A stretch of DNA of 7,927 bases from an archaeon (GTDB taxonomy: Archaea > Asgardarchaeota > Hermodarchaeia > Hermodarchaeales > Hermodarchaeaceae). The stretch is from assembly GCA_016550415.1 (NCBI GenBank), contig JABXGU010000372.1, positions 1 through 7,927 of the forward strand. Direction: 5' to 3'. Positions within the stretch are counted from its first letter, which is position 1. Each line of letters opens with the position of its first letter. Both the position numbers and the translations under genes were made by a program. Under the pieces are notes generated by a model. That model worked only from the letters and a program-made list of their open reading frames with translations, was not told the origin of the DNA and searched no databases. Below, piece by piece: positions 1 to 7,300 of this stretch.

Positions 1-1299
1 CTTTACATGGATGGCAAAGCGTTCAGCACCTTTGCCAATTTTCTGAGCAGCACGCTTAGAGCCTTCTGCAAGTAGATCGCCGATTCCTTCTCTTCTGGCG
101 ATCTTCTCAACCAGTGCAATCATAGTTTCGTGATTGCCCCAACTCAAGTCTAATCCATCTGCATCCTTCGAAGTAATAAGCCCATGTTCTGCAGCTTCAA
201 AGAGAAAGGCAATAGTACATCCAGTACTTATTGTATCGAGACCATATCGATTACAGAGTTGATTGGCATATAATATGGATTCAAGATTATTGTTGAGGAG
301 ATTACTACCAAAAGCCATTAGAGTTTCATATTCTGGTCCACCGGTTATTATTTGGTATTTTCCAGATTTTACTTGGGAAATGAATTTGCATTGAATAGCA
401 CATCCGAAACAGGATTCACGGCTTGTACGATACCCTTTCCTAATGGTTTCAGGTCCAATGGCATCAGCATCTTTGTAAATACCAGTTGTGTGGTTTTTAG
501 TGGGAAGTCTACCGATCTCTCCAATAGCTGAGACGAGATTTGTGGTACCATATTTGCCCAGTGATTCTTCGTTCATTTCGCCCCATTTGCCTGTAGTCAT
601 TAATTCAAAGGCTTTTCTGGCAACTGCCATGAATTGTCCTGTGTTAGCAACTTGAACTCCACCAGTTCCACGAACGGCAACCGCTTTGAGATTCTTACTG
701 CCCATCACAGCACCAGCGCCACCCCGTCCTGCGGCACGATAATAGGAGGAGATAATGGCAGCGTATTTGACAAGATTTTCACCACCGATACCTATGGTGG
801 AAACCTCAACTTCTTCATCCCCTTGCTCTTCACGAATAATATCAGTGGTTTCAACCGTATCTCGGCCCCAAAGATGCTCTGCATTTTGAAGGGTGACCTC
901 ACCATTTCGAACCATGATGTATACAGGTTTAGATGCCCTTCCTTGAATAGTCAACATGTCGAAGCCTGCGTATTTCAGTTGGGGGCCCCAGTGTCCACCG
1001 CAGTGAGCTTCACCCCAAAGCCCAGTTAAAGGAGCTTTGAAGGCAACCATGAACCGACCAGAGGGAGAGAAGAATGTGCCTGTAACAGGACCTACAGCAA
1101 AAACCAATGGATTTTCAGGATTCAACGGGTCCATGGATCCTTTAACACGATCCCAGAGCAGTCTAGATGCGAATCCTGTTCCACCCAGATATGAAAGGGC
1201 AAATCCTTGTTCCAAGGGGCGGACACTGATTTTACTGTGAGTAAGGTCAATGTCTGCAATCTTGCCTGCCCATCCGTAAAATTTCCCAGTTTTGCTCAT
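1..1299 (-). CDS. aor: Tungsten-containing aldehyde:ferredoxin oxidoreductase, catalytic subunit (C-terminus outside window)
   Basis: The frame is open from an ATG at 1299 to the left edge, giving 433 residues; the family is usually about 600, so the last quarter is missing. Enzymes of this family oxidise aldehydes to acids in the cytoplasm with a tungsten bis-pterin cofactor, passing electrons to ferredoxin. Visible family marks are HWGPQLKYAGFD (about 103-114), GRGGAGAVMGSKNLKA (191-206), LPTKN (265-269), the cluster motif C297-x2-C300-x3-C304, GGPEYET (about 320-326) and LDTIS. The fourth cluster cysteine of the family lies further downstream, beyond the window. The start is supported by GGAGGAG seven bases upstream and by an ATGA overlap with the stop of the polyferredoxin gene, which implies translational coupling. 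The aldehyde substrate cannot be read from the sequence. Confidence 0.95.
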   Translation of the reverse strand, partial: MSKTGKFYGWAGKIADIDLTHSKISVRPLEQGFALSYLGGTGFASRLLWDRVKGSMDPLNPENPLVFAVGPVTGTFFSPSGRFMVAFKAPLTGLWGEAHCGGHWGPQLKYAGFDMLTIQGRASKPVYIMVRNGEVTLQNAEHLWGRDTVETTDIIREEQGDEEVEVSTIGIGGENLVKYAAIISSYYRAAGRGGAGAVMGSKNLKAVAVRGTGGVQVANTGQFMAVARKAFELMTTGKWGEMNEESLGKYGTTNLVSAIGEIGRLPTKNHTTGIYKDADAIGPETIRKGYRTSRESCFGCAIQCKFISQVKSGKYQIITGGPEYETLMAFGSNLLNNNLESILYANQLCNRYGLDTISTGCTIAFLFEAAEHGLITSKDADGLDLSWGNHETMIALVEKIARREGIGDLLAEGSKRAAQKIGKGAERFAIHVK

Positions 1300-1802
1300 T
1301 TTGATTCTCCTCCACTTATAACTTGAAGGTATTTTGCCGCCTTTGCTATGCCCTCTTTTTGTTGACGGCGAGTCAATTCGTTTGGTTCAAGGTAAAGGAG
1401 GGCGTTCCTTGGACAGAATTGAACGCACATTACATATCCGTCACATAGGTCACATTTGATAGTTCTACCATCAACTGGATCAATGTGAATACCTCCAAAG
1501 GGGCAAGCAACTAGGCATTGATGGCACCCAATGCATTTTTCCTGATTGATACAAACTGCATTGGTTGTTTCATCACGATATATAGCGCCAGTAGGACAGC
1601 TTTCCATGCAAAGAGGATTATCACAGTGTTGACAGATGATAGGTATATTCACCCCTTGCTTCTGATCTCGAAGGATGGTGAGAAGTGCTCTACTGGGATT
1701 GAACTCTTTGTTGTGACGAAAAGAACACACTAATGTGCAAATAGCGCAGCCTGTACATTTCTCAGGATCTGCTACCAGAACTTTTTTTGTAGCCCTTGCC
1801 AT
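1296..1802 (-). CDS. Four-cluster [4Fe-4S] ferredoxin subunit partnering the aldehyde oxidoreductase
   Basis: This is a 168-residue soluble polyferredoxin. Sixteen cysteines fall in four groups: C16/19/22/26, C57/60/65/69, C90/93/96/100 and C117/120/126/130. That is the DmsB/HycB-type pattern expected to bind four [4Fe-4S] clusters, with an extra cysteine at 84. No signal peptide or membrane segment is visible, so it should act in the cytoplasm. Its stop overlaps the start of the aldehyde oxidoreductase gene by four bases (ATGA), which strongly suggests the two products form one complex. The polyferredoxin would wire electrons from the tungsten subunit to an acceptor, as in AorA/AorB-type enzymes. 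No good Shine-Dalgarno precedes the ATG at 1802, so the transcript may have a short or absent leader. The cofactor and fold assignment is solid; the partner is inferred from gene order. Confidence 0.92.
   Translation of the reverse strand: MARATKKVLVADPEKCTGCAICTLVCSFRHNKEFNPSRALLTILRDQKQGVNIPIICQHCDNPLCMESCPTGAIYRDETTNAVCINQEKCIGCHQCLVACPFGGIHIDPVDGRTIKCDLCDGYVMCVQFCPRNALLYLEPNELTRRQQKEGIAKAAKYLQVISGGESK
1307..1313 (-). promoter_or_regulatory. Ribosome binding site of the aldehyde oxidoreductase gene
   Basis: Read on the minus strand this is GGAGGAG, seven bases before the ATG at 1299. It lies inside the 3' end of the polyferredoxin gene. It fixes the oxidoreductase start and fits reinitiation across the ATGA overlap. 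Confidence 0.8.
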
Positions 1803-1904: not shown

Positions 1905-3236
1905 TTGCGCACATTAATCCAAAACGCAATGGTCGTCACAATGGATAGTCAGCGTCGTGTATTAGAACATGCAGACATCCTTATCGAGGACACCCGTATC
2001 GTTGCGGTTGGTGAAAAAACAAAGGCAAAACCTGACAAAGTTATTGATGGAACTGGGCGAATTGTGCTTCCTGGATTCATTTGTGGTCATACACATCTTT
2101 ATGGTATTCTGCTACGAGGAGCACCACTTAAAATGGAAGCGCCTTCAGATTTCATGCAGATACTCGACCGGATTTGGTGGCGTGCTGATTCCGCATTCAG
2201 CAAAGAAGATGCCTATGCCAGTGCCCTTATTGCTGGATATGAATTCATCAAAAGTGGAACTACATGTTTTGCAGACACATACTCAGGTCCAGGCTCAATT
2301 GAGGGTGTATTGGATGGAATTGCCAAAGGTGTCACTGAGGTTGGGCTACGAGGTATCCTAGCCTTCGAAGCCACCGAACGGAACAATCCTAAGGAAGGAC
2401 AAAGAGGGCTTCAAGAAAACGTACGCTTCATCAAACGGTTAAAGCAAAATCCCCATGACCTGCTTTATGGAATGTATAGCTTGCATGCATCGTTTACAAT
2501 TAGTGATGAGTTAATTAAGCAAACACGCCAGCAAGCAGACAAGCTTCCTGCACCCCTTACTATTCACACAAGCGAGGGGCTCATAGACGTTTACCATAAC
2601 ATCGAACGTTACGATAAACGCACTGTAGAACGCCTATTTGATTTAGGATTCCTTGGTTCCGATGTTGTGCTAGCACACTGTGTTAACGTAAACACTGATG
2701 AGCTCAAGCTTATTCGTGGCAGCGGAGCTTGTGTGGCACATAATCCAATGTCAAACATGAATAATGCTGTTGGTGTTGCCCCTGTTAAAGAAATGATGGA
2801 GTTAGAAATCCCAGTTTGTCTAGGCAATGATGGATTCATCTTCGACGCAATCGAGAATATGCGAGCCGCTTATCTCATCCATAAAGTTCACCACCTTGAT
2901 TCCCGAGTGACAACACCTCAGCAAATACTGGAGATGGCTACTATCAAAGGCGCTCAATGCTATGGGTTAGCAGATGAGCTAGGATCAATAGAACCAGGCA
3001 AACGCGCAGATCTAGTCATTCTTCATCCCAATCCACAAGCTACTCCAATACTACCCATAGGAGTCGCCAGTTACATTATCTACGGTCTTACAAACCAGAA
3101 TGTTGAAACAGTCTTCGCAAATGGAAAAATGGTAGTTGAGAACCAACGTGTCACTACAATTGAAGCTGAGACCGTTGAGAAAACCCTTGAAAAAGTAGTA
3201 CCAACGCTCTGGGCAAAACTTGGCATAGAAATCTAG
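1905..3236 (+). CDS. ssnA: SsnA-like metal-dependent amidohydrolase (deaminase/hydrolase)
   Basis: This is a 443-residue cytosolic TIM-barrel amidohydrolase of the AtzA/TrzN/deaminase group. The full single-metal set is present: H62 and H64 in GHTHLYG, H221 and E224 in HTSEG, H258 in AHC and D309 in GNDG. The small beta-sandwich halves lie at about 1-55 and 365-410. Features recalled from E. coli SsnA are also present: a paired tryptophan segment (IWWRAD, 90-95), FEATERNN (154-161) and SNMNN before VG (283-287). These favour the SsnA branch over S-adenosylhomocysteine deaminase. The start is TTG with GGAG ten bases upstream, and the first residues (RTLIQNAMVVTMD) match the usual N-terminus. 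It is divergent from the aldehyde oxidoreductase unit and ends seven bases from the convergent MoaD-like gene. SsnA itself has no settled substrate, so hydrolysis of an amino or ring C-N bond is inferred. Confidence 0.82.
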   Translation: MRTLIQNAMVVTMDSQRRVLEHADILIEDTRIVAVGEKTKAKPDKVIDGTGRIVLPGFICGHTHLYGILLRGAPLKMEAPSDFMQILDRIWWRADSAFSKEDAYASALIAGYEFIKSGTTCFADTYSGPGSIEGVLDGIAKGVTEVGLRGILAFEATERNNPKEGQRGLQENVRFIKRLKQNPHDLLYGMYSLHASFTISDELIKQTRQQADKLPAPLTIHTSEGLIDVYHNIERYDKRTVERLFDLGFLGSDVVLAHCVNVNTDELKLIRGSGACVAHNPMSNMNNAVGVAPVKEMMELEIPVCLGNDGFIFDAIENMRAAYLIHKVHHLDSRVTTPQQILEMATIKGAQCYGLADELGSIEPGKRADLVILHPNPQATPILPIGVASYIIYGLTNQNVETVFANGKMVVENQRVTTIEAETVEKTLEKVVPTLWAKLGIEI

Positions 3237-3243
3237 CTAATTC

Positions 3244-3525
3244 TTATCCTCCAGCAATCGGCGGAAAGATTGCGACAACATCACCATCACTAAGAGTGGT
3301 TTCAAGACCATGCAGTACATGCAAGCCACGACCATTAACTAAGATTTTGATGTAGGGTCTGACGCTACCTTGCTTGTTGAACACAGTTTCTCGAAAATTA
3401 CGACCATGTTTACCACAAAGCTGTTGCAGCAGGTCACCAACTGTTCGACCTTTCAAGTTAACCATTAATTGACGAAAACCTATTCGTTCAGAAAATGGAC
3501 CAATAGTCCTCACGGTCACCTTCAA
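3244..3525 (-). CDS. MoaD/ThiS-fold small sulfur-carrier or SAMP-like protein
   Basis: This is a 93-residue beta-grasp protein. It has an N-terminal strand (VTVRTIGPF), the TVGDLLQQL helix (about 28-36), a late LSDGDVVAIFPP segment and a terminal GG. That tail is the mark of MoaD/ThiS/SAMP proteins, which are adenylylated and thiocarboxylated at the last glycine. The likely role is sulfur donation for pterin-dithiolene synthesis, serving the tungsten enzyme at the left. A role as a ubiquitin-like protein modifier (SAMP) is equally compatible with the sequence. The start is TTG with AGGAG ten bases upstream; an ATG slightly further upstream is out of frame. It is transcribed towards the SsnA-like gene, with only seven bases between the stops. 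No MoaE or E1-like partner is in the window. Confidence 0.85.
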   Translation of the reverse strand: MKVTVRTIGPFSERIGFRQLMVNLKGRTVGDLLQQLCGKHGRNFRETVFNKQGSVRPYIKILVNGRGLHVLHGLETTLSDGDVVAIFPPIAGG

Positions 3526-3645
3526 GGTACTTTTTCTCCTTCATCGTGGAGATAATCAGCAATCTCATAAACCTACTGGAAAACCGCATTACTGATAAGC
3601 CAAAGTCTTAACAGTTGTGATAAAATCCTAGGAAGAGGATGCATT
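3526..3645. promoter_or_regulatory. Divergent intergenic region between the MoaD-like and second amidohydrolase genes
   Basis: This 120-base A/T-rich gap must hold the start signals of both neighbours. GAAGGAG (minus strand, 3536-3542) serves the TTG start at 3525. GAGG at 3635-3638 serves the ATG at 3646. I see no convincing promoter box, operator repeat or riboswitch-like fold. Confidence 0.35.
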
Positions 3646-5037
3646 ATGGCTGACATACTTATTGATCGTGCAACCATTATCACCATAAATCCTAAGCGCC
3701 AAATAATCAAAGATGGGGCAGTAGCTATTGAAGATCACAATATTCTCGCTGTTGGCAAAACAAGAGAGGTAAAACAGAAGCATAGCGCAGACACAAGAAT
3801 TCACGCAGATGGAAAGATACTACTCCCTGGTCTAATTGATGGTCATACACATTTAGCACAGGCATTAATCCGGGGATGTGCAGATGATGTAGACCTAATT
3901 CCATGGCTTCGGGACTATGTTTGGCGTCTACAAGGAAATTTCACTTCAGAGGACGGTGCAGCAAGCGCAGCACTGTGCATTGCTGAAATGCTCAAGTCTG
4001 GCACAACTAGCTTTCTTGAGTGTATGATTCACACACGTTACGGATTCGACGGGATAGCAAAGGTTGTAGATCAGTCCGGAATTCGTGGAGGCCTTGCTAA
4101 GATTTTCATGGACCTAACTGGTTATGCAGAAGAAGAGTCTATAATGTATCCTGGAATGATTGAAGACCCTGAGGTTTGTATCCAAGAAACATTATCAATG
4201 CATAAAAAATGGAGTGGAAAAGCTGATGGGAGAATCCATGTTTGGTGGGGAGGACGTACACCTGGTGCAGTAAGTCCCGAGTTGTATCGTCGTGTAGCAT
4301 CATTGGCAAAGGAACGAAATATGCGCATTACCATGCATTTAGCTGAAGTTCAAGCTGATGTGGAATACACAACCAGACAATTTAAACAAAAACCAGCTGA
4401 ATTCGCAAAATCTGTTGGGATGCTTGGAGATAATGTTGTCCTAGCTCATGGCGTATGGTTTAGCCCAGAAGAATTCCAGATACTAGCTAAAACTGGAACC
4501 CACATATGCCATTGCCCCGCAAGTAATTCGAAACTCGCCTCAGGCATAGCCCCAATCCCTCAAATGCTCAAAGCCGGTGTCAACATATGTCTTGGATGCG
4601 ATGGGGGACCCAGCAATAATGCCTACGACATGTTCCGGGAGATATTCCTCGCTGCCATTATTCACAAAGCCAAATCCCTTGATCCATTGACCATGCCAGC
4701 AGAAACTGTCATTGAAATGGCGACCATCAATGGCGCCAAGGCACTGGGCCTAGATAGGGAAATTGGTAGCATCGAGGTAGGTAAGAAGGCTGACCTGATT
4801 CTTATTGACACTGAGCAGTTGAATATTGCCCCCACCTATAACTCATTGAGCAACATCGTCTACGCTGCAAATGGCTCAAATGTTGACACAACCATAGTAA
4901 ATGGGCAAATCCTTGTTAGCAAAGGCAATCTTCTGACACTTGATGAGGATAAAGTAATTGAGCGTGCCCAAAAACTGGGTGCAAAACTCCTTGACCGTGC
5001 AGGAGTAGAAATCAAAAGCCGATGGCAAACAGATTAA
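3646..5037 (+). CDS. Amidohydrolase of the S-adenosylhomocysteine deaminase/TrzN/AtzB group
   Basis: This is a 463-residue cytosolic TIM-barrel hydrolase expected to remove an amino or other leaving group from an N-heterocycle or nucleoside. The metal ligands are all visible: H67 and H69 in DGHTHL, H231 and E234 in MHLAE, H268 in AHGVW and D319 in GCDGGPSNN. The stretch HCPASNSKLASGIAP (289-303) with the GPSNN motif resembles adenosine/S-adenosylhomocysteine deaminases and triazine hydrolases. It is a distant paralogue of the SsnA-like protein at the left but lacks that protein's WWR and SNMNN marks. The ATG start has GAGG seven bases upstream. The carbamoyltransferase begins 33 bases after its stop on the same strand, so they are probably co-transcribed. 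Specificity is not readable; guanine-, pterin- or nucleoside-type substrates are all possible. Confidence 0.85.
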   Translation: MADILIDRATIITINPKRQIIKDGAVAIEDHNILAVGKTREVKQKHSADTRIHADGKILLPGLIDGHTHLAQALIRGCADDVDLIPWLRDYVWRLQGNFTSEDGAASAALCIAEMLKSGTTSFLECMIHTRYGFDGIAKVVDQSGIRGGLAKIFMDLTGYAEEESIMYPGMIEDPEVCIQETLSMHKKWSGKADGRIHVWWGGRTPGAVSPELYRRVASLAKERNMRITMHLAEVQADVEYTTRQFKQKPAEFAKSVGMLGDNVVLAHGVWFSPEEFQILAKTGTHICHCPASNSKLASGIAPIPQMLKAGVNICLGCDGGPSNNAYDMFREIFLAAIIHKAKSLDPLTMPAETVIEMATINGAKALGLDREIGSIEVGKKADLILIDTEQLNIAPTYNSLSNIVYAANGSNVDTTIVNGQILVSKGNLLTLDEDKVIERAQKLGAKLLDRAGVEIKSRWQTD

Positions 5038-5067
5038 TACAGCTTTTAGCCATTTTCGAAAACAATT

Positions 5068-5075
5068 GAGGTGAT
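5068..5075 (+). promoter_or_regulatory. Strong Shine-Dalgarno that overlaps the apparent GTG start
   Basis: GAGGTGAT matches the 16S rRNA tail complement (AGGAGGTGAT) very well, but it contains the GTG at 5071 that would be the standard start. Its own natural target lies about eight bases downstream of GAGG, where the in-frame codon is ATT (5080). The paralogue at 7203 has the same arrangement, an AGGTGA site containing an in-frame GTG, but there the downstream codon is ATG. Confidence 0.6.
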
Positions 5076-6144
5076 TCCAATTTCTGTAGATAAAATTGTT
5101 GGCAAATTCCATGGTCGTGACTGGTTAACTATCCAAGAATGGACCCAAGAAGAACTCCAAGAACTCATTGATGCCGCTATAAGAATCAAGAAACTTCAGA
5201 AAGCCCACAAACCCCATGATTACCTAGCACGCCAGACACTATTCATGATATTCTTTAACCGATCACTTAGAACAAGAAACTCCTTTGAAGCAGGTATGAC
5301 CCAAATGGGAGGACACGCTCACTTCCTATCTCCACAAGACGTCTACCGTCCATCACTACCCGACGACGAAGAAGCCTACACTAGCGAACGAATATCAGAT
5401 GTCGCAAGAGTACTAGCACGCATGGGAGATGCCATAGCAATAAGAATCTACGGATCCCACGCAAAATGGATCTATGGACGAGGACACCGCATACTACGCG
5501 AATTCGCCAAATGGTCTGACATACCCATGATTAACATGGAGGATGACGTATATCATCCTTGTCAGGCTTTAGCGGATATGCAGGCGATTCAGGAGCATAG
5601 TCCCAAGTGGGAGGGTAAGCGGTTTGTTATGAGTTGGGCGTATAGTCCAAGTATGAAGAAGCCCTTGGCAGTCCCGCAGAGTGGTGTTTTGATGGGTACG
5701 AAGTGGGGTATGGATGTTGTCTTGGCTCATCCGAAGGGTTTTGAATTGGATCCCAAGATTATCAGTATGTGTGAGGAAAACGTGGCAAAATACGGGGGCT
5801 CATTTGAAATTTCTAATGATATGGAAGCTGCCTTTGCTGGTGCCCATTTTGTGTATCCTAAATGTTGGACCTCTAAACATCATATTCCACCCATAGCACC
5901 TGAAGAAGACTGGGATGGTTGCCAGAAGCTCTTTGAGAAAAACAAGGACTGGATTTGTGATTCAGAGAAGATGGCGTTGGGGGCTAGTGATGTTAGATAT
6001 ATGCATTGTCTTCCTGCTGACCGAGGCTTCGAAGTAACTGATGAGGTTCTCGACAGTGATCAGAGTATTGCCTTTGATGAGGCTGAGAATCGACTCCACG
6101 CTCAGAAAGCAGTTATGGCAGCTATTATGGGAACTCAGAAATGA
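5071..6144 (+). CDS. Carbamoyltransferase of the N-acetylornithine transcarbamylase/YgeW type
   Basis: This is a 357-residue aspartate/ornithine carbamoyltransferase-superfamily enzyme with a carbamoyl-phosphate domain followed by an amino-substrate domain. Carbamoyl-phosphate residues are seen in SLRTR (65-69), HPCQ (162-165) and HCLP (312-315); DEAENRLHAQKA closes the protein. The segment SWAYSPSMKKPLAVP (188-202) is rich in proline and resembles the knot-forming loop of AOTC, SOTC and YgeW. It replaces the DGNN motif of true ornithine enzymes. The ornithine SMG loop is also absent. An acidic stretch at 97-101 (PDDEE) sits in the specificity loop. The substrate is therefore probably not ornithine. 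Running in reverse to make carbamoyl phosphate is possible, given its amidohydrolase neighbour upstream. The GTG start lies inside the Shine-Dalgarno, and ATT at 5080 may be the real start. Codon style flips mid-gene near HPCQ. Confidence 0.88.
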   Translation: MIPISVDKIVGKFHGRDWLTIQEWTQEELQELIDAAIRIKKLQKAHKPHDYLARQTLFMIFFNRSLRTRNSFEAGMTQMGGHAHFLSPQDVYRPSLPDDEEAYTSERISDVARVLARMGDAIAIRIYGSHAKWIYGRGHRILREFAKWSDIPMINMEDDVYHPCQALADMQAIQEHSPKWEGKRFVMSWAYSPSMKKPLAVPQSGVLMGTKWGMDVVLAHPKGFELDPKIISMCEENVAKYGGSFEISNDMEAAFAGAHFVYPKCWTSKHHIPPIAPEEDWDGCQKLFEKNKDWICDSEKMALGASDVRYMHCLPADRGFEVTDEVLDSDQSIAFDEAENRLHAQKAVMAAIMGTQK

Positions 6145-6192: not shown

Positions 6193-7203
6193 TCAGTCAG
6201 CCATGATTAAAGAGAGAAGACCCTTCTGTAGATGAAGACGGTTTTCGGCTTGATCAAAGATAACACTTTGAGGACTATCTACAACCTCGTCAGTAGCTTC
6301 CTCACCACGAAAGACTGGTAGACAATGCATGAAAATTGCATCTTTGCTGGCTTTAGCCATTCGCTCAGAGTTACAAATCCAATCCCGGTACTTCTCATGC
6401 AGTTTTGCTTCGGTTTCAGTGCCGAATTTGTCGATGCCCATAGATGCACATTTGGCACTCATCCATGACCTTGGATAAATCACATGAGCTCCGTTATAGG
6501 CCTCTTCGATATCATTAGTAATGGTGAAAGAGCCTCCAGATTCGTCAGCATTCTGCTTGCACCAACCCATAATCTCTGAGTCTAGCTCAAAGCCGGGAGG
6601 ATTGGCAAGAACTACATCCATACCAAATCTGGCAGCTGTTAACACTGCACTCTGAACACTACACCAAGAACGAGCATGACGACTATAAGCCCAACTAAAA
6701 ACGAACTTCTTACCCTGAATTTTGGGGAAGTTTTCTTGCACCGTCATCAGGTCAGTAAGAGACTGGCAGGGATGGAATTTATCGTCGGCCATATTCACAA
6801 TAGGAACATTTGCCCATTTGGAGTATTCACGAAGGACTTGGTTACCACGTCCATATACGTAGCCGACTGCTTTTTCGAGGATACGGATTCCAATTCCGTG
6901 TCCGTAGCGTGCGAGTGTATTTGCAGTGTCTTTGATGCTTTCGCCTTCACCGAGGCGCATTGTGCCTGGTTCTAAAAATTGGGCATGTCCGCCGAGTTCT
7001 GTTAGTGCTGTTTCAAAGCTTGCGCGGGTTCGTGTTGAGGTGTTATAGAAGAGCATGAAGAAGGTTTTGTCTTTTAGTAGGTGTGGGCATTTTCCTGCTT
7101 TGCTCTTCTGTTTTAGGTCCTTGGAGAATTCGAGGACAGTATCAAGTTCTTCGCGTGTCCATTCTTGTGTTGTTATCATATCGCGTCCGCGCAAATCAAT
7201 CAT
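6193..7203 (-). CDS. Second carbamoyltransferase, ornithine/N-acetylornithine-like paralogue
   Basis: This is 336 residues from the ATG at 7203. It is paralogous along its whole length to the neighbour at 5071-6144, with which it converges. STRTR (56-60), HPCQ (144-147) and HCLP (293-296) give a complete carbamoyl-phosphate site. RLGEGESIKDTA (83-94) and CLPVFRGEEATDEV (294-307) look like ordinary ornithine carbamoyltransferase, and an SMG (254-256) is present. However, the ornithine DGNN motif is replaced by SWAYSRHARSW (170-180), the AOTC/YgeW position, with the usual prolines missing. The amine substrate is uncertain: ornithine for arginine synthesis, an acylated ornithine, or a catabolic carbamoyl compound. 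ATG 7203 is preferred to GTG 7215 because that GTG lies inside the AGGTGA ribosome binding site. Base skew changes near HPCQ, as in the paralogue. Confidence 0.87.
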   Translation of the reverse strand: MIDLRGRDMITTQEWTREELDTVLEFSKDLKQKSKAGKCPHLLKDKTFFMLFYNTSTRTRASFETALTELGGHAQFLEPGTMRLGEGESIKDTANTLARYGHGIGIRILEKAVGYVYGRGNQVLREYSKWANVPIVNMADDKFHPCQSLTDLMTVQENFPKIQGKKFVFSWAYSRHARSWCSVQSAVLTAARFGMDVVLANPPGFELDSEIMGWCKQNADESGGSFTITNDIEEAYNGAHVIYPRSWMSAKCASMGIDKFGTETEAKLHEKYRDWICNSERMAKASKDAIFMHCLPVFRGEEATDEVVDSPQSVIFDQAENRLHLQKGLLSLIMAD

Positions 7204-7300
7204 CTTTTTTTTCACCTAAAGAGTTGAATCCCAGAAGGCGGGTGGAGGCAAATCCTTTTGAACTTTTCGTGGTGTTGCTATCAACATAGGGTTCTTTGCA
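7204..7300. promoter_or_regulatory. Divergent intergenic region between carbamoyltransferase and TatD
   Basis: This 97-base spacer must hold divergent start signals. AGGTGA (minus strand, 7212-7217) is the ribosome binding site for the ATG at 7203. Only a weak TAGGG precedes the TatD ATG at 7301. GAAAAGTTCAAAA on the minus strand (about 7256-7268) is a loose BRE/TATA-like candidate. Nothing else recognisable is present. Confidence 0.3.

Follow-up and report, generated by a model that had tools for sequence, protein, structure and literature searches.

The window, the stretch of DNA analysed here, is one complete contig of 7,927 bases (JABXGU010000372.1) from an archaeon of the Hermodarchaeaceae. 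It carries a real and conserved locus in which genes for two amidohydrolases (AH1 and AH2) are followed by genes for two carbamoyltransferases (CT1 and CT2). With the chances judged about evenly balanced, we suggest that this archaeal locus, only part of which lies in the window, serves to break down a purine ring of the urate type by a modified form of reductive uric acid degradation, in which the two carbamoyltransferases take both ureido groups. That the substrate is a purine is, like every reaction of the proposed pathway, something we infer from sequence.

In Escherichia coli, as outlined in PMC12507026, XdhD reduces urate to yanthine, YgfK reduces it again, and SsnA and HyuA open the product to 2,3-diureidopropionate. 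One ureido group is removed as carbamoyl phosphate by YgeW, which makes albizziin from diureidopropionate, the other is removed by YgeY, and YgeX gives pyruvate (PMC12507026). The urate cluster of E. coli and Clostridioides difficile comprises XdhD-YgfM, YgfK or UacX, SsnA, HyuA, YgeW or UacY, YqeA, YgeY and YgeX, with SsnA as the marker gene for the cluster (PMC12507026). An initial annotation of the window had recognised an SsnA-like and a YgeW-like gene and proposed a divergent, tungsten-based purine pathway. The genes are:

1–1299, minus: AOR-family tungsten aldehyde:ferredoxin oxidoreductase (AOR; PF02730 257 bits, PF01314 239.6 bits), its C-terminal part outside the window
1296–1802, minus: ferredoxin-like electron-transfer subunit (several Fer4-type Pfam matches), its gene sharing 4 bases with that of the AOR
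1905–3236, plus: AH1, SsnA-like amidohydrolase (best NCBIfam match SsnA, below cut-off)
3244–3525, minus: MoaD/ThiS-like sulphur carrier (TIGR01687 72.6 bits, cut-off 49.5)
3646–5037, plus: AH2, deaminase-type amidohydrolase (best NCBIfam match 5'-deoxyadenosine deaminase, 432.9 bits, cut-off 522)
5071–6144, plus: CT1, knotted-type carbamoyltransferase (YgeW-related motifs; NF003384 match)
6193–7215, minus: CT2, second carbamoyltransferase (46.6% identical to CT1)
from 7301, plus: TatD-type nuclease, start only

The open reading frames which the initial annotation gave for AH1 and CT1 proved exact, and the second deaminase-like amidohydrolase and the tungsten oxidoreductase which it placed nearby are AH2 and the AOR. 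It counted one carbamoyltransferase where the window has two, CT2 having gone unmentioned, and it also passed over the ferredoxin and MoaD-like genes.

The two carbamoyltransferases

Against the NCBIfam profile for N-acetylornithine carbamoyltransferase (AOTC; NF003384, cut-off 288) CT1 scored 295.7 bits and CT2 283.6, just under the cut-off. The YgeW profile (NF005538, cut-off 453) gave 152.4 and 162.1 bits respectively, and that for ornithine carbamoyltransferase (OTC; TIGR00658, cut-off 280.85) 242.4 and 273.5, both below. The nearest folds are AOTC entries, AOTC being a knotted family (PMC4581275).

The E. coli YgeW segments TWAYSPSYGKPLSVPQG, LAHPEGYDL and VYPKSW align with SWAYSPSMKKPLAVPQS, LAHPKGFEL and VYPKCW of CT1, and the YgeW proline-rich loop KPLSVPQG aligns with KP.AVPQS. 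CT2 keeps the residues of this loop that are extra relative to OTC but reads RSWCSV there, the knotted-group loop being weaker in CT2. At the position of the OTC loop Asp (D..SMG-type) the alignment has Lys in CT1 and Arg in CT2; in knotted AOTC and N-succinylornithine carbamoyltransferase (SOTC) a conserved loop Lys binds the second substrate (PMC4581275). S.RTR, HP.Q and a C-terminal Asn-Arg-x-His are invariant columns in both the CT1 and the CT2 sets aligned. HCLP is invariant in the CT1 clade and varies in the CT2 clade, at Cys and, less, at His; the window CT2 reads HCLP.

In an 88-row tree the CT1 types (26 rows, 81/96), the CT2 types (29 rows, 89/79) and a group containing E. coli YgeW (22 rows, 97/99) formed three separate clades apart from OTC and aspartate carbamoyltransferase, in a tree without any SOTC sequence and with AOTC and YgeW on long branches whose exact places are unsure. 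The CT1 and CT2 clades each contain Asgard archaea, Bipolaricaulota, Chloroflexota, Cloacimonadota and Caldisericota. The likeness of CT1 to YgeW seen in the initial annotation holds for the motif segments; the low YgeW score and the separate clade place the protein outside YgeW proper.

Shared with YgeW (YTCase) are the proline-rich loop, the Lys of VYPK.W (CT1), the carbamoyl phosphate motifs and the clustering with SsnA. Extra N- and C-terminal helices and an extended 240's loop are features of YgeW (PMC4581275), whereas CT1 and CT2 align without the long terminal extensions or the 240's-loop insertion and with a longer 120's loop. The Xanthomonas AOTC resembles them as nearest fold and as CT1's nearest profile, in both knotted-group loops and in the S(L/M)RTR of CT1; they differ from it in their catabolic gene neighbourhood and in coming from genomes with a separate OTC, in five of which no argH was detected. 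We regard CT1 as a candidate for the phosphorolysis of 2,3-diureidopropionate and CT2 as a candidate for the second ureido group, that of an albizziin-type intermediate.

The carbamoyltransferase pair in other genomes

Among 80 fetched loci, both CT1 and CT2 were present at 43 of the 52 that are CT1-type. In 37 of the 43 the two are direct neighbours as far as genes were called, and in 42 they share one strand, the exception being L001, which carries a Candidatus Hermodarchaeota label and is the closest of the fetched loci to the window (CT1 88% identical). Forty of these loci have the pair only, and three have a YgeW-clade enzyme too. Carbamate kinase lies close to the pair in 33 of the 40 pair-only loci, xanthine dehydrogenase (XDH) near it in 10 and adenine deaminase in 4; in L003, L005 and L006 adenine deaminase directly follows carbamate kinase. 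SsnA, at 200 bits, is near only 3 of the 40. A pyridoxal phosphate (PLP) enzyme of about 489 residues (L018:5162–6631 and relatives), weakly like cysteine synthase (PF00291, 52.7 bits), occurs near 15 of them.

In L007, a Bipolaricaulota locus labelled Acetothermia, genes for an F420-dependent reductase, SsnA, a threonine-synthase-like (ThrS-like) protein and a second PLP enzyme stand on the same strand with overlaps of 1–4 bases and are followed, across a gap of 759 bases, by carbamate kinase, CT1 and CT2. The SsnA of this locus passes both cut-offs (527.6 against 444 and 497.3 against 455.5). In Chloroflexota the reductase has been proposed to be an F420 'luciferase family' protein (PMC12507026). 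Two Cloacimonadota loci (L034 and L036) also carry YgfK, YgeY, XDH and a YgeW-clade enzyme.

In eight loci (L003, L007, L053, L133, L149, L154, L155 and L167) the ThrS-like gene adjoins one of the SsnA type, and in L177 it adjoins CT2. Its product exceeds a threonine synthase cut-off, so that a role as diaminopropionate lyase can be put forward only tentatively. No YgeX was found near the 66 loci searched, at a limit of 120 bits.

YgeY is uncommon beside the pair. At 150 bits it was found at 4 of the 40 pair-only loci as against 14 of 26 YgeW-clade loci (p 1.6e-4), and at 250 bits at 4 of 40 as against 13 of 26 (p 4.5e-4), p values which are too small because the genomes share ancestry; all three loci holding the pair plus a YgeW-clade enzyme have it. 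The presence of two carbamoyltransferases with carbamate kinase, and the scarcity of YgeY beside them, suggest that the two ureido groups both end up as carbamoyl phosphate.

The amidohydrolases AH1 and AH2

The SsnA profiles are the best matches of AH1, at 378.6 bits for NF005540 (cut-off 444) and 358.4 for TIGR03314 (cut-off 455.5); N-ethylammeline chlorohydrolase (300.6) and 5'-deoxyadenosine deaminase (261.8) score lower. AH1 is 31.6% identical to E. coli SsnA (b2879) and has the marks WWR, FEATER and SNMNN where the latter reads WWR, FETTDR and SNMNN; these positions are variable in other SsnA-type rows and the marks are missing from two thermococcal deaminases. In the tree an archaeal AH1 clade (17 rows, 100/100) is sister to the SsnA clade (join 89/63), and AH1 is split from AH2 and the two thermococcal deaminases at 100/99, few reference deaminases being included. 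This position rules out AH1 as a plain S-adenosylhomocysteine (SAH), methylthioadenosine (MTA) or 5'-deoxyadenosine deaminase, as far as the few deaminase references used can tell. The earlier designation as SsnA-like stands on the marks and on the best profile; with scores below cut-off and a place in a sister clade, AH1 is probably not an SsnA in the narrow sense. We consider it a candidate for the hydrolytic opening of a reduced purine ring.

AH2 clusters with the thermococcal deaminases (98/95) and is a candidate for the deamination of a purine or 8-oxopurine that then enters the pathway. A relative 57% identical to it lies in a Chloroflexi cluster (L053) beside SsnA, a YgeW-clade enzyme, YgeY, carbamate kinase and HyuA. 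The contig concerned (L053:1038–13349) has a nearly complete urate-type cluster, which includes the ThrS-like gene, together with this AH2 relative. The amidohydrolases of the Bipolaricaulota loci L043 and L172 form, against a first assignment to SsnA, a third small group in the tree (95/90); that of L043 scored 225.7 bits with SsnA and 247 with N-ethylammeline chlorohydrolase.

Conservation among Asgard archaea

The Hermodarchaeota-type set consists of five draft genomes, possibly incomplete, four of them found among the 227 genomes of the phylum that were scanned (CT1 86–89% identical). All five have the order AH1-AH2-CT1-CT2, a ferredoxin gene beside AH1 (70–78% identity, one being cut by a contig end) and a MoaD-like gene in the gap between AH1 and AH2 (62–69% identity). 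Gene calling was incomplete, and the ferredoxin genes of L119 and L121, which had not been called, were recovered by tblastn. The MoaD-like protein of the window is a candidate for the making of a pterin (tungsten) cofactor. In four of the five loci the AOR gene and a gene for a UacX-like protein follow, a second MoaD-like stretch adjoining the latter; the fifth contig stops inside the ferredoxin gene.

The UacX-like protein, seen in the relatives and encoded outside the window, is a relative of dihydroorotate and dihydropyrimidine dehydrogenases with a C-terminal Fe-S part. Its best match is the dihydropyrimidine dehydrogenase PreA (192 bits, below the cut-off of 335), and in L001 its gene overlaps that of the AOR by one base. 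In two Hermodarchaeota-type genomes, at L184 (6894–8819) and L186 (2693–4618), a second AOR gene (641 residues) lies upstream of the UacX-like gene, beyond genes for a GTPase and geranylgeranylglyceryl phosphate (GGGP) synthase, that of L186 being 49% identical to the first AOR.

Several enzymes of the bacterial pathway were sought in these five draft genomes. None gave a match to the XDH molybdenum subunit (PF02738) or to YgeY (TIGR03526, E 1e-60). A hydantoinase (TIGR02033) was over cut-off in three of the five, on other contigs, which qualifies the earlier remark that no hyuA was in view. Carbamate kinase (TIGR00746), which the initial annotation had advised looking for outside the window, was over cut-off on another contig of the single Hermodarchaeota genome scanned for it (L157).

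The association of AH1 and CT1 extends beyond these genomes. Across 227 Asgard genomes both were found in 41, CT1 only in 7, AH1 only in 11 and neither in 168 (p 1e-27; a 44% match in G124 was excluded from the CT1 count and a partial match in G199 included), and across 100 Bipolaricaulota genomes the numbers were 39, 23, 15 and 23 (p 0.025), shared ancestry again making these values too small. The recurrence of the order AH1-AH2-CT1-CT2 in all five Hermodarchaeota-type genomes is more than chance; conserved co-occurrence in related genomes was among the checks that the initial annotation had advised. In Thorarchaeota-type genomes AH1 is preceded, close by and in the same orientation, by a gene for a protein of 485–505 residues (L148:6610–8118, with proteins of similar size in L140–L144, L147 and L150); for that of L148, Pfam and NCBIfam gave no match at the limits applied. 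In a Thorarchaeota-type genome a gene for a protein of the penicillin-amidase family (L126:5800–8397; PF01804, 617 bits) is divergent to CT1, and proteins of similar size occupy the same place in L122, L123 and L128.

The tungsten oxidoreductase and ferredoxin

The AOR of L001, which is full-length and 79% identical to that of the window, aligns to Pyrococcus AOR (1aor) with 424 bits. It keeps the residues counted as E313 and H448 of 1aor, which we take to be the active-site Glu and His, and four cysteines, presumably the cluster ligands. As it aligns with an ordinary AOR and retains these residues, a plain aldehyde role is open to it. The ferredoxin matches the NCBIfam entries for two proteins of formate-dependent uric acid utilisation, AegA (5.4e-26) and YgfT (1.6e-21), though far below cut-offs.

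In the Asgard genome G018 genes for AOR, AH1, AH2, UacX-like protein, ferredoxin and MoaD are clustered again at 31–62% identity; the region concerned (L138:6678–18361) has three AOR and two ferredoxin genes around the others, with the MoaD-like gene once more in the AH1-AH2 gap. The genome has a CT2 (63%) adjoining the ThrS-like gene in L177 and a YgeY over cut-off, and no CT1-type match appeared in the scans. A generally conserved AOR link had to be narrowed, no AOR being found at 17 of 19 other Asgard AH1 loci; apart from genomes of the Hermodarchaeota type it is seen only in G018, weakly in G058 (34%), and among Bipolaricaulota in the three loci L043, L172 and L173. In L043 the AOR gene overlaps an AH1-like gene, which in turn overlaps a UacX-like gene. 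In L172 and L173 the AOR stands alongside XDH, which argues for an electron role of AOR there. The tungsten connection drawn in the initial annotation is borne out for the Hermodarchaeota-type genomes, where AOR and ferredoxin stand beside the set and no molybdenum hydroxylase was detected.

Alternative explanations

The same logic might serve another substrate, a pyrimidine, a hydantoin or some other N-heterocycle yielding a ureido compound, and not a purine, the carbamoyltransferases then phosphorolysing N-carbamoyl amino acids. We think this rather unlikely, though it has to be taken seriously. PreA as best match of the UacX-like protein fits it, as do a hydantoinase gene near PreA-like genes elsewhere in three Hermodarchaeota-type and three Thorarchaeota-type genomes (28–41% to the UacX-like protein) and the different surroundings of AH1 and CT1 in Thorarchaeota-type genomes; nor was any XDH detected in the five genomes that might produce or dehydroxylate an 8-oxopurine. 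A purine is favoured by the SsnA type of AH1 and the over-cut-off SsnA beside the pair in L007, by the presence of XDH and adenine deaminase genes close to the pair in several bacteria, and by the pairing itself, which suits a substrate with two ureido groups. It is quite improbable that the genes are loosely adjoining housekeeping genes, that is, a fermentative aldehyde AOR, SAH or 5'-deoxyadenosine deaminases and unrelated carbamoyltransferases. The classic active-site residues of the AOR, the clustering of AH2 with thermococcal deaminases and the TatD, glmS and GGGP synthase genes around the locus would agree with this, and a fermentative role has been proposed for the multiple AORs of Hermodarchaeota, the aldehydes coming from amino acid fermentation (PMC8163825). 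Such a collection would hardly be expected to cluster again in G018 or to overlap in the bacterial L043, and AH1 lies outside the deaminases tested.

We consider it very unlikely that CT1 and CT2 make up one hetero-oligomer with one catalytic and one structural or regulatory subunit, only one ureido group then passing to carbamoyl phosphate. The active site of a transcarbamylase lies between subunits. The enzymes are trimers (PMC4581275), the two genes are mostly direct neighbours, and the H.LP motif varies across the CT2 clade; yet the other motifs are invariant in the aligned sets of both clades, the window CT2 reads HCLP, G018 has CT2 with no CT1-type match in scans, and in some Asgard genomes (G002 and G210 among them) the CT1- and CT2-type matches are on different contigs or more than 10 kb apart. 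Hardly any credence attaches to the pair as anabolic arginine enzymes (AOTC or OTC) that adjoin the other genes for unrelated reasons. CT1 does exceed the AOTC cut-off, the nearest folds are AOTC, and its named relatives in public records are N-acetylornithine or ornithine carbamoyltransferases (among the rows listed), which is probably a misnaming. All 12 genomes checked, the five of the Hermodarchaeota type included, encode a further enzyme that exceeds the OTC cut-off, the archaeal CT1 and CT2 falling below it, which makes arginine synthesis unlikely for the pair; argH, at E 1e-20, was found in none of the five Hermodarchaeota-type genomes, and on these two grounds the assignment was rejected. 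Among the neighbours identified, moreover, it is carbamate kinase, amidohydrolases, PLP enzymes and XDH-type proteins that recur. The initial annotation had named beforehand, as outcomes contrary to its proposal, a place for the amidohydrolase among plain SAH deaminases and for the carbamoyltransferase among arginine enzymes; AH1 lies outside the SAH/MTA-type deaminases tested and CT1 is not an arginine enzyme. As to the purine pathway with two carbamoyltransferases, L023, L034, L035, L036, L039, L043, L050 and G065 weaken the notion of the pair as an invariable replacement for YgeY.

Proposed pathway

In the purine pathway that we propose, a ferredoxin-linked UacX-like reductase would dearomatise an oxopurine, AH1 would open the reduced pyrimidine ring, and a hydantoinase coded elsewhere would open the remaining ring to give 2,3-diureidopropionate. 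CT1 and CT2 would each phosphorolyse one ureido group, leaving 2,3-diaminopropionate and two carbamoyl phosphates, from which carbamate kinase could make two ATP instead of one, while a fold-type II PLP enzyme might cleave diaminopropionate to pyruvate and ammonia. AH2 probably deaminates the purine on its way in. The tungsten AOR with its ferredoxin might remove the 6-oxo group, the task of XdhD in E. coli, or supply low-potential electrons to the reductase. Albizziin and beta-ureidoalanine are one compound. A transcarbamylase that produces beta-ureidoalanine from diaminopropionate is known (PMC4581275), and it offers a precedent, run in the opposite direction, for the second ureido step. The order of the ureido cleavages in the urate pathway has been named an open question (PMC12990295).

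Compared with the known urate cluster, the locus and its relatives share an SsnA-like amidohydrolase, a YgeW-related carbamoyltransferase, carbamate kinase, an adjoining Fe-S reductase of the dihydroorotate dehydrogenase type and, in some genomes, a hydantoinase. They differ in having two carbamoyltransferases from two other clades, in the failure to detect YgeY or XdhD in any of the five Hermodarchaeota-type genomes, or YgeX close to the 66 loci searched for it, in a tungsten AOR plus ferredoxin, and in their occurrence in archaea, the survey presented in PMC12507026 having covered bacteria. Of the divergent tungsten-based purine pathway first proposed, the conserved set, carbamate kinase and a reductase like UacX are supported, and XDH, YgfK or adenine deaminase stand near in several bacteria; the purine itself is presumptive.

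A more specific form of the proposal, which we hold to be unlikely, is an Asgard purine pathway in which the tungsten AOR replaces molybdenum XDH and acts on urate as the 6-oxo reductase. Ferredoxin would then power the two reductions, and the two ureido groups would be recovered by a pair of paralogous knotted carbamoyltransferases. We know of no tungsten enzyme acting on a purine, and none was apparent among the literature matches listed, the best of a longer list, in their titles and abstract openings. The titles and abstract openings among the matches listed likewise gave no paired carbamoyltransferases or Asgard urate breakdown, subscription papers being mostly outside the coverage.

It was not until 2025 that the reductive breakdown of urate was elucidated, in gut bacteria. 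The proposed variant would extend the probable range of the pathway to Asgard archaea, and it would bring to light relatives which public records name as arginine enzymes. The CT1 and CT2 clades, which travel with carbamate kinase, make it possible to test directly whether phosphorolysis can reach the second ureido group as well as the first; if it does, the ATP from the ureido route per purine ring would be doubled relative to E. coli.

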